Below, piece after piece: positions 1,399 through 43,521 of a DNA stretch of 48,160 bases. Origin of the DNA: Microcaldota archaeon (GTDB lineage Archaea; Micrarchaeota; Micrarchaeia; Micrarchaeales; CABMGC01); assembly GCA_021852055.1 (NCBI GenBank), contig JAJZOD010000014.1:1-48160 (forward strand), written 5' to 3'. A program made the position numbers and the translations under genes. Under the pieces are notes generated by a model. That model worked only from the letters and a program-made list of their open reading frames with translations, did no database searches and had not been told where the DNA came from. Numbering within the stretch: position 1 is the stretch's first letter; the number at the start of each line of letters is the position of its first letter.

Positions 1399-1450
1399 GA
1401 GTTGCAGGGTTGAAAGCCCCGCGTCCTTGGCCGGACTAGACGATAGGAGC
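1376..1450 (-). tRNA. tRNA-Glu (anticodon TTC)
   Basis: A 75-nt cloverleaf folds on the minus strand. The acceptor GCTCCTA pairs with TGGGAGC (one G-T). The D-stem is GTCT with GGAC, the anticodon stem CGGGG/CCCTG surrounds loop CTTTCAA with anticodon TTC, and the T-arm is TCGGG-TTCAAAT-CCCGA. The discriminator is A. CCA is not encoded and there is no intron. An AT-rich promoter-like stretch lies above 1460. The 3' half is probably the attachment target of the neighbouring integrase. Confidence 0.95.
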
Positions 1451-1527
1451 CCGCAGTTGATTTGAGTAATATACTTAATGCTTCTGATTTATAAACATTC
1501 TTGGGTAATTACTCAGTTAGTGGAGGC

Positions 1528-2163
1528 ATGAAGGGCATATTTGTATGTATCGAGGGCAACGACGGCTCGGGGAAGACTACGCAGGTTGGATTGCTCAGGG
1601 ATTCCTTATGGAAGAAAGGGATAGACACCAGCGTTTACTCATATCCTACCCACGATTCGCGTTATGGGCGCATAATACGCGATGAGTTCCTGACAGGCAA
1701 GGCAGAGCTTAGCGTTGAAGAGCAGTTTCTTTTGTACCTGCTTGATATGCAGGCTGACAAGAAGAGGATAATTTCAGACCTTGAAGGTGGAAAGGTGGTA
1801 ATAACCGACAGATACTTCATATCGACAATAGCTTACCAGTCTGCAGGAACCTTCGATTACGAAAAAGCCAAGGCTGTTGAAGAGATCATGGGCCTCCCTA
1901 GGCCGGATGTGATATTCTACATAGACATACCTGTGCTTGTAGCTTTCGAGCGCAAGATGAAGCAAAAAGGCAAAACAGATAGGTTTGAAGGCGCAAGGAG
2001 CTATCTCACCAAGGTAGGTGGCCTGTATGAAAGGTTATACGATGAGAGGTATGGTTCCCAAAAATGGGTGAAGATAGACGGCCTTAGGACTATAGACAAG
2101 ATACATGAGACAATATATGAAGGAGTAAATAGCATGCTTGATGATATACGAAGGAGGGATTGA
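1528..2163 (+). CDS. tmk: Thymidylate kinase
   Basis: Phosphorylates dTMP to dTDP with ATP in the cytosol. From ATG 1528 the product is 211 residues. It has a P-loop GNDGSGKT at about 9-16, the thymidylate kinase DRY motif in VVITDRYFIST, and a Lys/Arg-rich lid region (RKMKQKGKTDRF) near 150. The frame also offers TTG at 1501, but ATG 1528 puts the first strand in its usual place and lies about 35 bases downstream of a TTTATAAA element near 1489-1496, so it is preferred. The stop codon abuts the ATG of dcd, so the two genes for dTTP synthesis are co-transcribed. Confidence 0.93.
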   Translation: MKGIFVCIEGNDGSGKTTQVGLLRDSLWKKGIDTSVYSYPTHDSRYGRIIRDEFLTGKAELSVEEQFLLYLLDMQADKKRIISDLEGGKVVITDRYFISTIAYQSAGTFDYEKAKAVEEIMGLPRPDVIFYIDIPVLVAFERKMKQKGKTDRFEGARSYLTKVGGLYERLYDERYGSQKWVKIDGLRTIDKIHETIYEGVNSMLDDIRRRD

Positions 2164-40062: not shown

Positions 40063-40377
40063 CTATTGCGGAGGTATGACGTAGTGCGATATGATACGCG
40101 CAGCCCTTTCAAGAACTATCTTTATGTTCTTTTCTGTGTTGGAGCCAGTGCATATAAGCTTGCCGTTCTTGAAAAGTATTATTACGGCTTTAGGCTCCTT
40201 CATCCTGAATATGGCACCGGGAAACTGCTCGGGCTCATAATCCACCTCCTTGACATTTTTTGACAAAGAGAAAAGATCTATGTTTGCATGAAGGTCAGAA
40301 CTTACAACTATGTTCTGTATCTTTATCTGAGGGTTAATCTTCCCTCTGCCTTTCTTCTCTGGTTCTGATTTTGCCAA
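40063..40377 (-). CDS. tbp: TATA-binding protein with a single TBP repeat
   Basis: 104 residues: a basic tail (SEPEKKGRGKINPQ) and one complete TBP repeat of about 89 residues. IKIQNIVVSSDLHANIDL, YEPEQFPGAIFRM, AVIILFKNGKLICTGS and a last helix EKNIKIVLERAARII give strand-helix-strands-helix. Both DNA-kinking Phe positions of a repeat are present (EQFPG, LFKNGK). Normal archaeal TBP is 180-200 residues with two repeats. Here TAG follows ISHYVIPPQ, with no second repeat after it. An in-frame TGA lies at 40399-40401, and a TATA box at 40407-40414 leaves room only for the TTG start at 40377. The product would have to dimerise, or pair with another half, to form a TBP saddle. Confidence 0.88.
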   Translation of the reverse strand: MAKSEPEKKGRGKINPQIKIQNIVVSSDLHANIDLFSLSKNVKEVDYEPEQFPGAIFRMKEPKAVIILFKNGKLICTGSNTEKNIKIVLERAARIISHYVIPPQ

Positions 40378-40406
40378 TTTATCACAGTATATTATCTTTC
40401 AAAGCC

Positions 40407-40414
40407 TTTATAAA
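40407..40414 (-). promoter_or_regulatory. TATA box of the single-repeat TBP gene
   Basis: TTTATAAA, palindromic, centred about 34 bases before the TTG at 40377. It predicts a short leader and shows that transcription begins downstream of any place where a first repeat could be encoded. TBP may bind its own promoter here. Confidence 0.55.
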
Positions 40415-40440
40415 CCCTGCCTCCACTGTACGTTTCATAA

Positions 40441-40660
40441 AATCCTCCAGGACAGGCACCCGCAATCTCAAGGTTGACCTACATAAAATTGATGAGTGTC
40501 CAAACTGCGGAAATCCTCTAAGAAAAATGAAAAGAACCTTAAGAAGATAATCATCGATATCAAGGACACAGGAACTGAGACAACAACGTACCTACCAAAG
40601 ATTGGGTATTGTGATAATTGCGAAGAATTAGTCAAAGCAGCAATCCAAACACTCTTCTAA
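40441..40660 (+). pseudogene. Frameshifted zinc-ribbon protein remnant
   Basis: One frame encodes KVDLHKIDECPNCGNPLRKM and stops at TAA 40548-40550. Across the A-rich AGAAAAATGAAAAG the neighbouring frame continues as KNLKKIIIDIKDTGTETTTY followed by LPKIGYCDNCEELVKAAIQT and ends at TAA 40658-40660. Joined, they give a small zinc ribbon with two C-x2-C pairs. A one-base slip in the A-run separates the halves, so this is a decayed gene, a sequencing indel or a programmed frameshift. No good start codon is seen. It lies in the 528-base gap between tbp and the propeller gene. Confidence 0.45.
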
Positions 40661-40905: not shown

Positions 40906-43521
40906 TTGGAAGGTTTTAAAGCACAGGCAACTCTCGAGTTCATAGTGCAGTATTCCAGCGAGCTCATCATACTCGCAGCAGCAGTTGCAGCCGTTTACTT
41001 AATATCAATACCATCAGGGCAGCAAACTCTAGGCAACTCCCCTTCATATTGCTACATAACCCCTAACCTTAACTGTTACCAGCTCATTGTAACTTCAAAT
41101 GCAGTTGCAACTAGTATCACCGTATTTTTTACAAACAACATAGGAAAGTCAATATACCTACCATCTAACTCTTTATACGTGGCTCCAACTGCTGCAAGCA
41201 GCTTCACGGCAGGCACATGCAACACCACCGTCCTAAAATCAGGAAAGTCTGCATCGTGCACTGTATCTTTGCAAAACTTCAAGATAAGCACAGGCATACA
41301 GATAGAGCCGTCGTTCTTCGTAAGCTATAAAGTGTGCAATGATGCGTCATGCAGCAATCCAAACACACTACAAACCATTAACACATCAGGCAGCGCAACG
41401 TCATTTGCTGTAACCTCAACCATAAGCACCTCTACAACATCCACAACCACAACGTCATCTACTACATCAACCACATCTACAACGACAATATTGCCGCAGC
41501 TTACGGTTTATGCAAGTGCATCGTCAGGTGTCATATTCTTAGGAAGCTCATCAACCCTTACGGCAACAGCCTCTGGTGGAGTATCTCCATACACCTACAA
41601 TTGGTACGAAGAAGCTCCTGGTCTGTCCAGCTACACTGCAATACCTGGTGCAACTTCAACGTCTTATATATTTCAGGCGCCATATCAGGACGGCACATAT
41701 TCGTTTATAGCATCTGCGACGGACTCTGAATCACCGGCACATACATCAAACAGCTTGCCTGTCAACGTGATTGTAAAATCAGGCGGCACCTACGCTTATG
41801 TGGTTGATACTGTATCAAACAATGTTTCAATAGTCGACACATCAACAAACACAGTCGTCGGCACAATCCCTAAGTCTCAAAAGCCAGTTTCTCTGAACGG
41901 GTTCGAAGATGTTGCTGTCGCACCCAGCGGCACCTATGCATACACTACAAACTTCCTGCCAAACAACGTTTCAATAATCGACACTGCTACGAACACCGTA
42001 GTTGGCCAAATAAATTCAGCAAACTTCGACGGACCAACTGGCGTTGCATTCGCACCCAGCGGCACCTACGCCTATGTGGAAAATTATAACGCAAATACCA
42101 CAACTATAATCAGCACAGCCACAAACTCAGTTGTCGGTCAGATCACCGGTTTAGCGTATCCTATGTTCGTTGCATTCGCACCCAGCGGCACCTACGCATA
42201 TGTAACGGATTACAACTCAACTAATGTGACTATAATCAGCACAGCAACAAATTCAGTAACTGGAAATATTGTGGGCATGTCCTACAACGGAACTGTAGGA
42301 GCCGAAGGCATTGCATTCGCACCAAACGGCACCTACGCATATGTAGTCTACAGCAACATTGATAACGTCTCAATAATCGACACTGCCACAAACTCAATTG
42401 ACGTAATATCTGTAAATCCAGAAGCACCGGCGCAAAATGGTTACGGGACAGTAGGATTTAATTATCCTGTCGGCGTGGCATTCTCACCCAGCGGCACCTA
42501 TGCATACATCTCCAATTCCGGCTCAAACAATATTGTTATAGTCAATACAATTACGACGTTCATAACAAATTCCATAAATTCTACCGAACCTCTAAATTCT
42601 ACCAATGTAACAGGAATATTAAATGACCCTATGGGAATTGCATTCGCACCAAACGGCACCTACGCTTATGTCTCAAATTATGGTTCTGGTGCTCTTTCGG
42701 TAATCAACACTGCCACAAATACTGTATTGAATTCAATACCTCAATCTGTAACTCCATTTTATGAACCTACGGGCGTGGCATTCTCACCCAGCGGCACCTA
42801 TGCATATATTGCAAATACCGCAAACATATTAATAGTTAATACAGCAACAAATACAGTTACGGGTGCAATAAACTCTGGTCTCGGAATACCCACCCGTACC
42901 CTTGTTCTAGATGTTGCATTCGCACCAAACGGCACCTACGCATACGCTACTAGCTACCCTGCGCACAATATATCTATAATCAATACGGCAACAAATTCAG
43001 TCACTGGACATATAAGTTTCGGGGCTAATTATCCTGTTGCTGTAGCATTTTCGCCTTCTGGCACTTATGCATATGCTACAGATGTCAATTCCTCCTCATC
43101 TTCTGGTCCGGGTTACTCCCATGATAATGTGATTATAATCAATACAGCAACAAATACGATAACTGGTCTAATAAAAGGCAATTTTGACAATCCACAGGGC
43201 GTTGCATTCGCACCAAACGGCGCCTACGCTTATGTTGTAAACCTTGTATCTGGCATAGGTGCTCCGAACGTTTCCATAATCAATACGGCAACAAATTCAG
43301 TCACAGGCGCAATAAATTCTAACAGCCTCTTTAATTCACTTGGCGTTGCATTCGCACCAAACGGCGCCTACGCATACGTAACAAATGCGTACTCTGGAAC
43401 AGCCCCTCACACAGCAAACTTATATGGTAATATGATCATAATAAACACGGCAACAAATTCAGTCACAGGCGCAATAAATTCTGGATTTAATTACCCATAT
43501 GCTGTTGCAATTTCGCCATGA
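40906..43521 (+). CDS. Pilin-anchored YVTN beta-propeller surface protein
   Basis: 871 residues from TTG 40906, the only start consistent with the N-terminus. A class III-like hydrophobic segment (AQATLEFIVQYSSELIILAA) is followed by a small cysteine-containing domain, a Thr/Ser linker (about 165-195), an Ig/PKD-like domain (about 198-290, TATASGGVSPYTYNWY) and 12 YVTN repeats of 43-55 residues, each opening TYAYV and closing GVAFAPSG or a close variant. Such repeats form propeller blades in archaeal surface-layer proteins. Many N-x-S/T sites occur. It is convergent with the Gly/Tyr-rich protein gene. Confidence 0.85.
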   Translation: MEGFKAQATLEFIVQYSSELIILAAAVAAVYLISIPSGQQTLGNSPSYCYITPNLNCYQLIVTSNAVATSITVFFTNNIGKSIYLPSNSLYVAPTAASSFTAGTCNTTVLKSGKSASCTVSLQNFKISTGIQIEPSFFVSYKVCNDASCSNPNTLQTINTSGSATSFAVTSTISTSTTSTTTTSSTTSTTSTTTILPQLTVYASASSGVIFLGSSSTLTATASGGVSPYTYNWYEEAPGLSSYTAIPGATSTSYIFQAPYQDGTYSFIASATDSESPAHTSNSLPVNVIVKSGGTYAYVVDTVSNNVSIVDTSTNTVVGTIPKSQKPVSLNGFEDVAVAPSGTYAYTTNFLPNNVSIIDTATNTVVGQINSANFDGPTGVAFAPSGTYAYVENYNANTTTIISTATNSVVGQITGLAYPMFVAFAPSGTYAYVTDYNSTNVTIISTATNSVTGNIVGMSYNGTVGAEGIAFAPNGTYAYVVYSNIDNVSIIDTATNSIDVISVNPEAPAQNGYGTVGFNYPVGVAFSPSGTYAYISNSGSNNIVIVNTITTFITNSINSTEPLNSTNVTGILNDPMGIAFAPNGTYAYVSNYGSGALSVINTATNTVLNSIPQSVTPFYEPTGVAFSPSGTYAYIANTANILIVNTATNTVTGAINSGLGIPTRTLVLDVAFAPNGTYAYATSYPAHNISIINTATNSVTGHISFGANYPVAVAFSPSGTYAYATDVNSSSSSGPGYSHDNVIIINTATNTITGLIKGNFDNPQGVAFAPNGAYAYVVNLVSGIGAPNVSIINTATNSVTGAINSNSLFNSLGVAFAPNGAYAYVTNAYSGTAPHTANLYGNMIIINTATNSVTGAINSGFNYPYAVAISP
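41790..43520 (+). repeat. Twelve tandem coding repeats with near-identical DNA core
   Basis: The blade boundary GCATTCGCACCCAGCGGCAC plus about ten following bases (or the AAACGG variant) recurs almost unchanged through the propeller region, for example near 42050, 42176, 42314, 42646, 42914 and 43204. The sequence between copies diverges. Such conserved cores favour recombination that changes blade number. Confidence 0.85.

Follow-up and report, generated by a model that had tools for sequence, protein, structure and literature searches.

In all archaea and eukaryotes, the TATA-box-binding protein (TBP) is assumed to consist of two lobes that go back to one ancient duplication. Reviews and evolution papers on TBP derive its two lobes from a duplication (PMC7221094, PMC4910066, PMC7289017), and one dating method published for TBP presupposes that this event happened only once (PMC4910066). 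A gene encoding just one lobe, located in a genome of a Microcaldota archaeon, thus raises the question of whether it is a damaged or supplementary copy or whether half a TBP serves here in place of the whole. The window, i.e., the whole stretch of DNA that was analyzed (48,160 nucleotides of contig JAJZOD010000014.1), hosts this gene, hereafter B, in the following arrangement.

40063 to 40377, minus strand: gene B, single-lobe TBP paralogue, 104 codons encoding 104 amino acids, TTG start at 40377, TAG stop
40407 to 40414, minus strand: TATA box TTTATAAA of gene B, about 30 bases before the start codon
38891 to 40042, plus strand: glycosyltransferase (Pfam Glycos_transf_1), tail-to-tail with gene B

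The reading frame is closed at both ends, as stated in the initial annotation, namely by the TAG stop and by an in-frame TGA upstream of the start (40401-40399, minus strand). Orthologues of B carry an ATG at the position of the TTG, with identical residues after it (MAKS...), which makes TTG the likely start. The distance from the TATA box to the start codon fits a near-leaderless spacing, and its position agrees with a genome-wide motif at -30. The glycosyltransferase adjacency is conserved across the two families of the order, termed f1 (the family of the window genome) and f2, with synteny in the loci L387 and L389 (f1) as well as L393, L395, and L396 (f2), which indicates that B is one old orthologue; an FAD oxidoreductase is found near B in both families, too. 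Two further elements were recognized close by. An 871-amino acid protein (40906-43521, plus strand) with a Thr/Ser-rich linker and repeated GTYAYV..NTATNSV-like units resembles a beta-propeller-like surface protein, its WD40 and cytochrome D1 matches being weak only. Short overlapping open reading frames upstream of B (40371-40660, plus strand) show CPNCG and CDNC motifs in two frames and are perhaps the remnant of a decayed or frameshifted zinc-ribbon protein.

The B protein gives one match to PF00352, covering residues 17-98 over profile positions 1-84/85 with 89.4 bits (cut-off 22.9), in line with the full single TBP repeat noticed at the outset. The 15-residue basic tail described along with it did not hold, since the basic stretch MAKSEPEKKGRGK forms an N-terminal head in front of the lobe (residues ~17-98). 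The two tandem repeats of a canonical TBP are not present: the protein comprises one stretch of 104 amino acids only, without an in-frame second lobe. Against the NCBIfam TATA-box-binding protein models (PRK00394 set), it reaches at most 86 bits compared with whole-protein cut-offs of 181-347, which it misses because half of the length is absent; scores that far below the annotation cut-offs may explain why half-TBPs went unremarked. Apart from PF00352, the TBP-like domain of RNase HIII (DUF3378) was the sole family listed for the protein; it scored 21.1 bits with a cut-off of 27, and there is no fusion to RNase H. The AlphaFold model depicts one well-defined TBP lobe (mean pLDDT 92.9), which was superposed by Foldseek on one lobe of 1cdw_A with an rmsd of 0.8 A over 84 columns (TM 0.78 by query and 0.46 by target). 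The residues expected to contact DNA and the transcription factor TFB were located as follows.

40228 to 40236, minus strand: Glu48-Pro49-Glu50, acidic pair, mapped by alignment to C.L3.2 and C.L3.4
40222 to 40224, minus strand: Phe52 of YEPEQFPG, first DNA-contacting Phe, invariant in the lobe alignment
40171 to 40173, minus strand: Phe69 of ILFKNGK, second DNA-contacting Phe, invariant in the lobe alignment, position L5.1 of PMC7221094 as mapped by alignment

Both DNA-contacting Phe residues are thus kept, as had been noticed before. Alignment with both canonical repeats revealed that the lobes share this Phe pair and, in addition, the Glu-x-Glu of the C lobe. This TFB-contacting motif of the stirrup has been reported as a C-lobe signature in canonical TBP (PMC7221094). 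It was found in 23 of 24 B lobes, in all 70 lobes of the A/S type, and in both lobes of micrarchaeal two-lobe TBPs, compared with 21 of 97 canonical N lobes; the corresponding figure for canonical C lobes is biased by the sampling pattern (YEPEQFPG). TATA binding, bending, and TFB recruitment by the lobes of B and of its paralogue A are predicted on this basis.

The assembly hosting the window (1.02 Mb, 14 contigs, 90% complete) was searched as a whole for members of the family, giving exactly two matches, both single-lobe and on different contigs. The second one is gene A.

C7:69894-70139, minus strand: gene A, single-lobe TBP, PF00352-family match in a 113-amino acid open reading frame

Neither a two-lobe TBP nor a further lobe was detected in this genome, even at E<=10 with a profile built from 45 lobes. 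This speaks against the suggestion of the initial annotation that B could be additional to a normal TBP, the presence of which had been named as a counterargument. Such an absence would count for little by itself at 90% completeness, but closed and near-complete relatives show this state again. The two lobes, identical to each other at 42 of 79 lobe positions, are accompanied by a single TFB gene of the ordinary kind, with its two cyclin repeats. A and B are both under strong purifying selection; among B orthologues dN amounts to 0.04-0.13 where dS, often saturated, is at least 1.26. Loss of a second repeat through assembly error, as well as a frameshift or a pseudogene, is ruled out for B by this selection and by the same length of the orthologues within genus and family.

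Extension of the search toward the phylum level recovered TBP in 96 of 98 relatives and in 232 of 245 phylum genomes. Based on the TBP genes read in each family, 15 out of 26 families examined contain single-lobe TBP only (f1, f2, f8-f11, f13-f15, f17, f19, f21, f22, f24, f25), and the families f3-f7, f12, f16, f18, f20, f23, and f26 have two-lobe genes. Both A and B occur in nearly all genomes of f2 and in many of f1. The two genes are also present in Mancarchaeum acidiphilum Mia14, the genome of which is complete and circular (952,257 bp; PMC5498576; G064 in our set). Only one gene, of the A type, is present in several f1 genera and in most of the other single-lobe families. In five such genomes, among them one in a single contig (G034) and one being 97% complete (G008; the others are G043, G126, and G119), nothing else was found at E<=10, so A alone must suffice there. 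In family f11, three half-TBP genes per genome were observed (L035/L285 in G120 and L086-L088 in G116), two of those in G120 lying ~1.3 kb apart on one contig; these triplets are plausibly an intermediate toward fusion or a set of pairing partners.

Outside Micrarchaeota no half-TBP was found, neither among the named archaea sampled nor in the phylum Woesearchaeota. The former sample came from scanning GTDB genomes for a YEPEQFPG DNA pattern, which favors TBPs carrying this motif; its non-micrarchaeal TBPs were all two-lobe save contig-edge or fragmentary reading frames and one divergent haloarchaeal plasmid copy. A bathyarchaeal 86-amino acid frame (L108) resembles a fragment, with full copies alongside. 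In Woesearchaeota, TBP was detected in 117 of 119 genomes, every match listed lying in a frame of at least 180 amino acids. The f1-type half-TBPs L102 and L149 stem from two bins titled Marsarchaeota that are probably mislabelled. A canonical two-lobe TBP in a genome with A and B (L063, G086:C43:2733-3251) groups with Thaumarchaeota, sits on an 8.4-kb contig, and was probably mis-binned. A viral origin was dismissed, as the TBPs in archaeal virus contigs and phage records are two-lobe (one locus seemingly frameshifted) and distant.

The gene neighborhood connects the one-lobe and two-lobe forms. The gene of ribosomal protein L21e (Pfam PF01157) adjoins the A/S or the two-lobe gene in f1-f12, f14, f16, f18-f23, and f26, the two being divergently transcribed where gene order was read. 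No L21e gene turned up in the short loci that were read in f13, f15, f17, f24, and f25 or near TBP in the other sampled archaea. One and the same L21e locus hosting either a one-lobe or a two-lobe gene implies that the same gene switched its lobe number in place. B, in turn, is never located beside L21e, and this position together with its glycosyltransferase and FAD oxidoreductase context in f1 and f2 marks it as an old duplicate of the order. The direction of the switch was approached with a 41-genome RpoB tree that had four canonical-TBP archaea as its root. Micrarchaeota are monophyletic therein (100/99), the first branch (f10, f13, f15, f17, f22, f24) and the second (f9) are single-lobe, and the two-lobe families fall into three nested clades. 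Parsimony on this tree suggests a single-lobe crown ancestor of Micrarchaeota with three changes; a single two-lobe clade was not rejected (p-AU 0.32).

A tree of 82 lobes over 85 columns places all micrarchaeal lobes, whether single or taken from two-lobe proteins, in one clade (99/98) and the canonical C lobes in another (97/95), with A and B as sisters (93/86). Uniting micrarchaeal and canonical C lobes by constraint carries a penalty of 40.6 log units (p-AU 0.043), the equivalent constraint on the N lobes likewise 40.6 (p-AU 0.054), and that of B with canonical C lobes 30.5 (p-AU 0.037), so these decisive tests stand only near p = 0.04-0.05 on ~85 columns. Attachment of the micrarchaeal clade outside canonical N lobes gave a p-AU of 0.39, with DPANN C lobes 0.41, and with DPANN N lobes 0.20. 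Re-duplication or homogenization within Micrarchaeota is thereby supported. Identity between the two lobes of one protein is mostly 60-80% in micrarchaeal two-lobe TBPs, compared with 42-61% in canonical ones aligning without gaps; these identities are ungapped, and the full-lobe values are too low for the indel-bearing L093, L115, L129, L255, and L262. Within a 38-residue core, identity reaches up to 37/38. The two-lobe TBPs of f4 and f5 share 35 of 37 and 33 of 35 codons between lobes, which points to recent duplication or gene conversion, and conversion in this fashion could mimic re-duplication. In L092 and L252, protein identity within the core is 92-95% and synonymous sites have diverged, a pattern that points to selection for symmetry. 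One two-lobe protein of f12 (L255, G184) departs from the near-symmetry seen in other families, its lobes having diverged strongly (core 17/38).

Promoters were examined in genomes of each type. In G034, which has A only, an AA-rich element is followed by a TATA element of ~8 bp at about -30, with a log-likelihood of 127.7 compared with at most 55.6 in shuffles. A-only, A+B, and two-lobe genomes alike show a TATA/BRE-type motif near -30, its log-likelihood being about twice that of the best shuffle. Hence TBP/TFB promoters appear to operate with one kind of lobe, and we infer a homodimeric saddle as the simplest mechanism for them. A palindromic TATA as signature of such a homodimer was looked for as well; the motif is real, its symmetry varied with register, and the bootstraps were wide. 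The natural two-lobe protein of G117 is predicted to adopt the usual saddle (TM 0.88-0.91 to 1mp9_B).

Taken as a whole, we consider it probable that two single-lobe TBPs replace the canonical protein here, form its saddle as a dimer, and were fused again in other families. A and B together would replace TBP in the micrarchaeon of the window. A, next to L21e, would be the main, vertically inherited TBP gene of a phylum with a single-lobe ancestor, and B would have arisen by duplication in the last ancestor shared by both families of the order, later being lost in several genera. Two lobes are thought to associate via the surface that joins N and C lobes in an ordinary TBP, yielding a saddle on the TATA box, as A/A where A is the sole gene and as A/B (perhaps also A/A or B/B) where both are present. 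The presence of partner A in the genome fits the initial proposal that B probably acts as a homodimer or pairs with another half-TBP. With the Phe pair and the acidic stirrup on every lobe, such a dimer would offer TFB two equivalent docking ends. Direction in archaeal transcription is set by the contact of TFB with the BRE (PMC7289017), which makes a symmetric TBP workable; here it would come from TFB contacting the BRE upstream of the TATA box. In the other families, the single-lobe gene would have duplicated internally in place, giving a new two-lobe TBP with lobes that are near-copies of the half-TBP and of each other instead of resembling canonical N and C lobes.

Other readings were weighed against this one. 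Micrarchaeota may have split before the TBP duplication and kept the original half-TBP, the two-lobe form arising later in other archaea and eukaryotes. The separation of the micrarchaeal lobes, as one clade, from canonical C lobes, the non-rejection of their placement outside all canonical N lobes, and the single-lobe state being ancestral within the phylum on the RpoB tree are consistent with this. However, it requires Micrarchaeota as the first archaeal branch, outside other DPANN with canonical TBP; a published rooting puts the ultrasmall archaea inside the tree and regards their odd features as derived (PMC4316627), the lobes throughout bear the Glu pair specific to the canonical C lobe, and the best lobe tree sets them among N lobes. 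We therefore regard this reading as unlikely, secondary loss of the canonical TBP being the likelier course because DPANN relatives possess it. Equally improbable is the combined version in which a retained pre-duplication dimeric TBP is ancestral to all two-lobe TBPs and the duplication was repeated at least once. B, as a later duplicate of A, would not be the relic even if one exists. Of the ancestral state claimed in the initial annotation, the resemblance to the proposed TBP ancestor and its ancestry within the phylum stood; its being the ancestor of all TBP is unlikely, as several attachments of the micrarchaeal lobes fit the trees and loss is likelier.

It is most unlikely that a canonical gene was cut in two, with A as the old N lobe and B as the old C lobe. 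B does match the C-lobe part of nine out of ten NCBIfam TBP models and A the N-lobe part of five out of ten, and A begins with IENIV and B with IQNIV like canonical N and C lobes, but grouping B with canonical C lobes was rejected (marginally, on the 85 columns), A and B are sisters, and most single-lobe families have one gene only. One lobe binding half a TATA site as a monomer, with TFB supplying the rest, would explain why a single gene suffices in many genomes and would accord with the need of many archaeal TBPs for TFB in stable binding (PMC7289017). Two lobes are nevertheless required for the saddle and for the 8-bp bend produced by known TBP, a motif of about that length exists in the A-only genome, and the fusion of two copies in part of the phylum is easiest to understand if lobes function in pairs; a monomer is accordingly very unlikely. 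More room is left for B being a specialized alternative or regulator, acting as B/B or A/B on a subset of promoters in the manner of the multiple haloarchaeal TBPs, which is doubtful as it stands and compatible with the main explanation for A. B may thus be something other than a heterodimer partner: several f1 genera lost it while keeping A, the two differ at nearly half of the lobe positions, and its neighbors are glycan and lipid-type genes instead of the L21e cluster. On the other side, nearly all f2 genomes and many of f1 retain B, which is subject to strong purifying selection and has all DNA- and TFB-contacting residues.

Comparison of the preferred explanation, paired single-lobe TBPs, with known systems delineates what is particular to it. 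Canonical archaeal TBPs (M. jannaschii 2z8u, S. acidocaldarius 1mp9, P. woesei 1pcz/1ais) have the fold, the Phe pair, and the acidic stirrup in common with the lobes described here, and one TFB and TATA promoters co-occur in both, but they carry two distinct lobes per chain instead of one per gene. A single lobe per chain is also known from the TBP-like N-terminal domain of RNase HIII and other single bacterial TBP lobes (PMC7221094); the former is the substrate-binding domain of an enzyme, whereas the present lobes are free-standing with archaeal TBP sequence. More than one TBP gene per genome in some lineages is a feature shared with haloarchaea, the haloarchaeal proteins being two-lobe and not halves like A and B. 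In the split genes of Nanoarchaeum equitans and Micrarchaeum (PMC4316627), a function of a reduced archaeon is likewise divided among pieces with genes of their own; A and B differ from them in being paralogues that each copy one lobe, instead of the two cut halves of a gene.

DPANN papers state only the presence of TBP (PMC8407392, PMC8204110), and no description of a half or single-lobe TBP in Micrarchaeota was found in the open-access literature, subscription papers lying outside this survey. A half-TBP spread over most of a phylum is thus apparently unreported. It breaks the assumption of a universal two-lobe TBP and, with neighbors re-fusing the gene in place, provides a living model of the proposed TBP ancestor. 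The system permits testing the contribution of the second lobe, comparing dimer with single chain and symmetric with asymmetric TATA recognition, and with two TFB docking ends on a symmetric TBP, the way in which direction is set becomes testable, too.

Single TBP-like lobes were also encountered in a different context. Divergent proteins of ~100 amino acids lie beside type I restriction-modification genes in G175 of family f21 (L386:1765-2067, plus strand; PF00352 43 bits) and in Ca. Methanofastidiosum (G260, L385 near 1438-1689, minus strand; 57 bits), the main TBP being located elsewhere in each genome. An HsdS-type specificity subunit neighbors one of them and an N6 methylase the other, and both proteins are possibly small regulators of the restriction-modification system.
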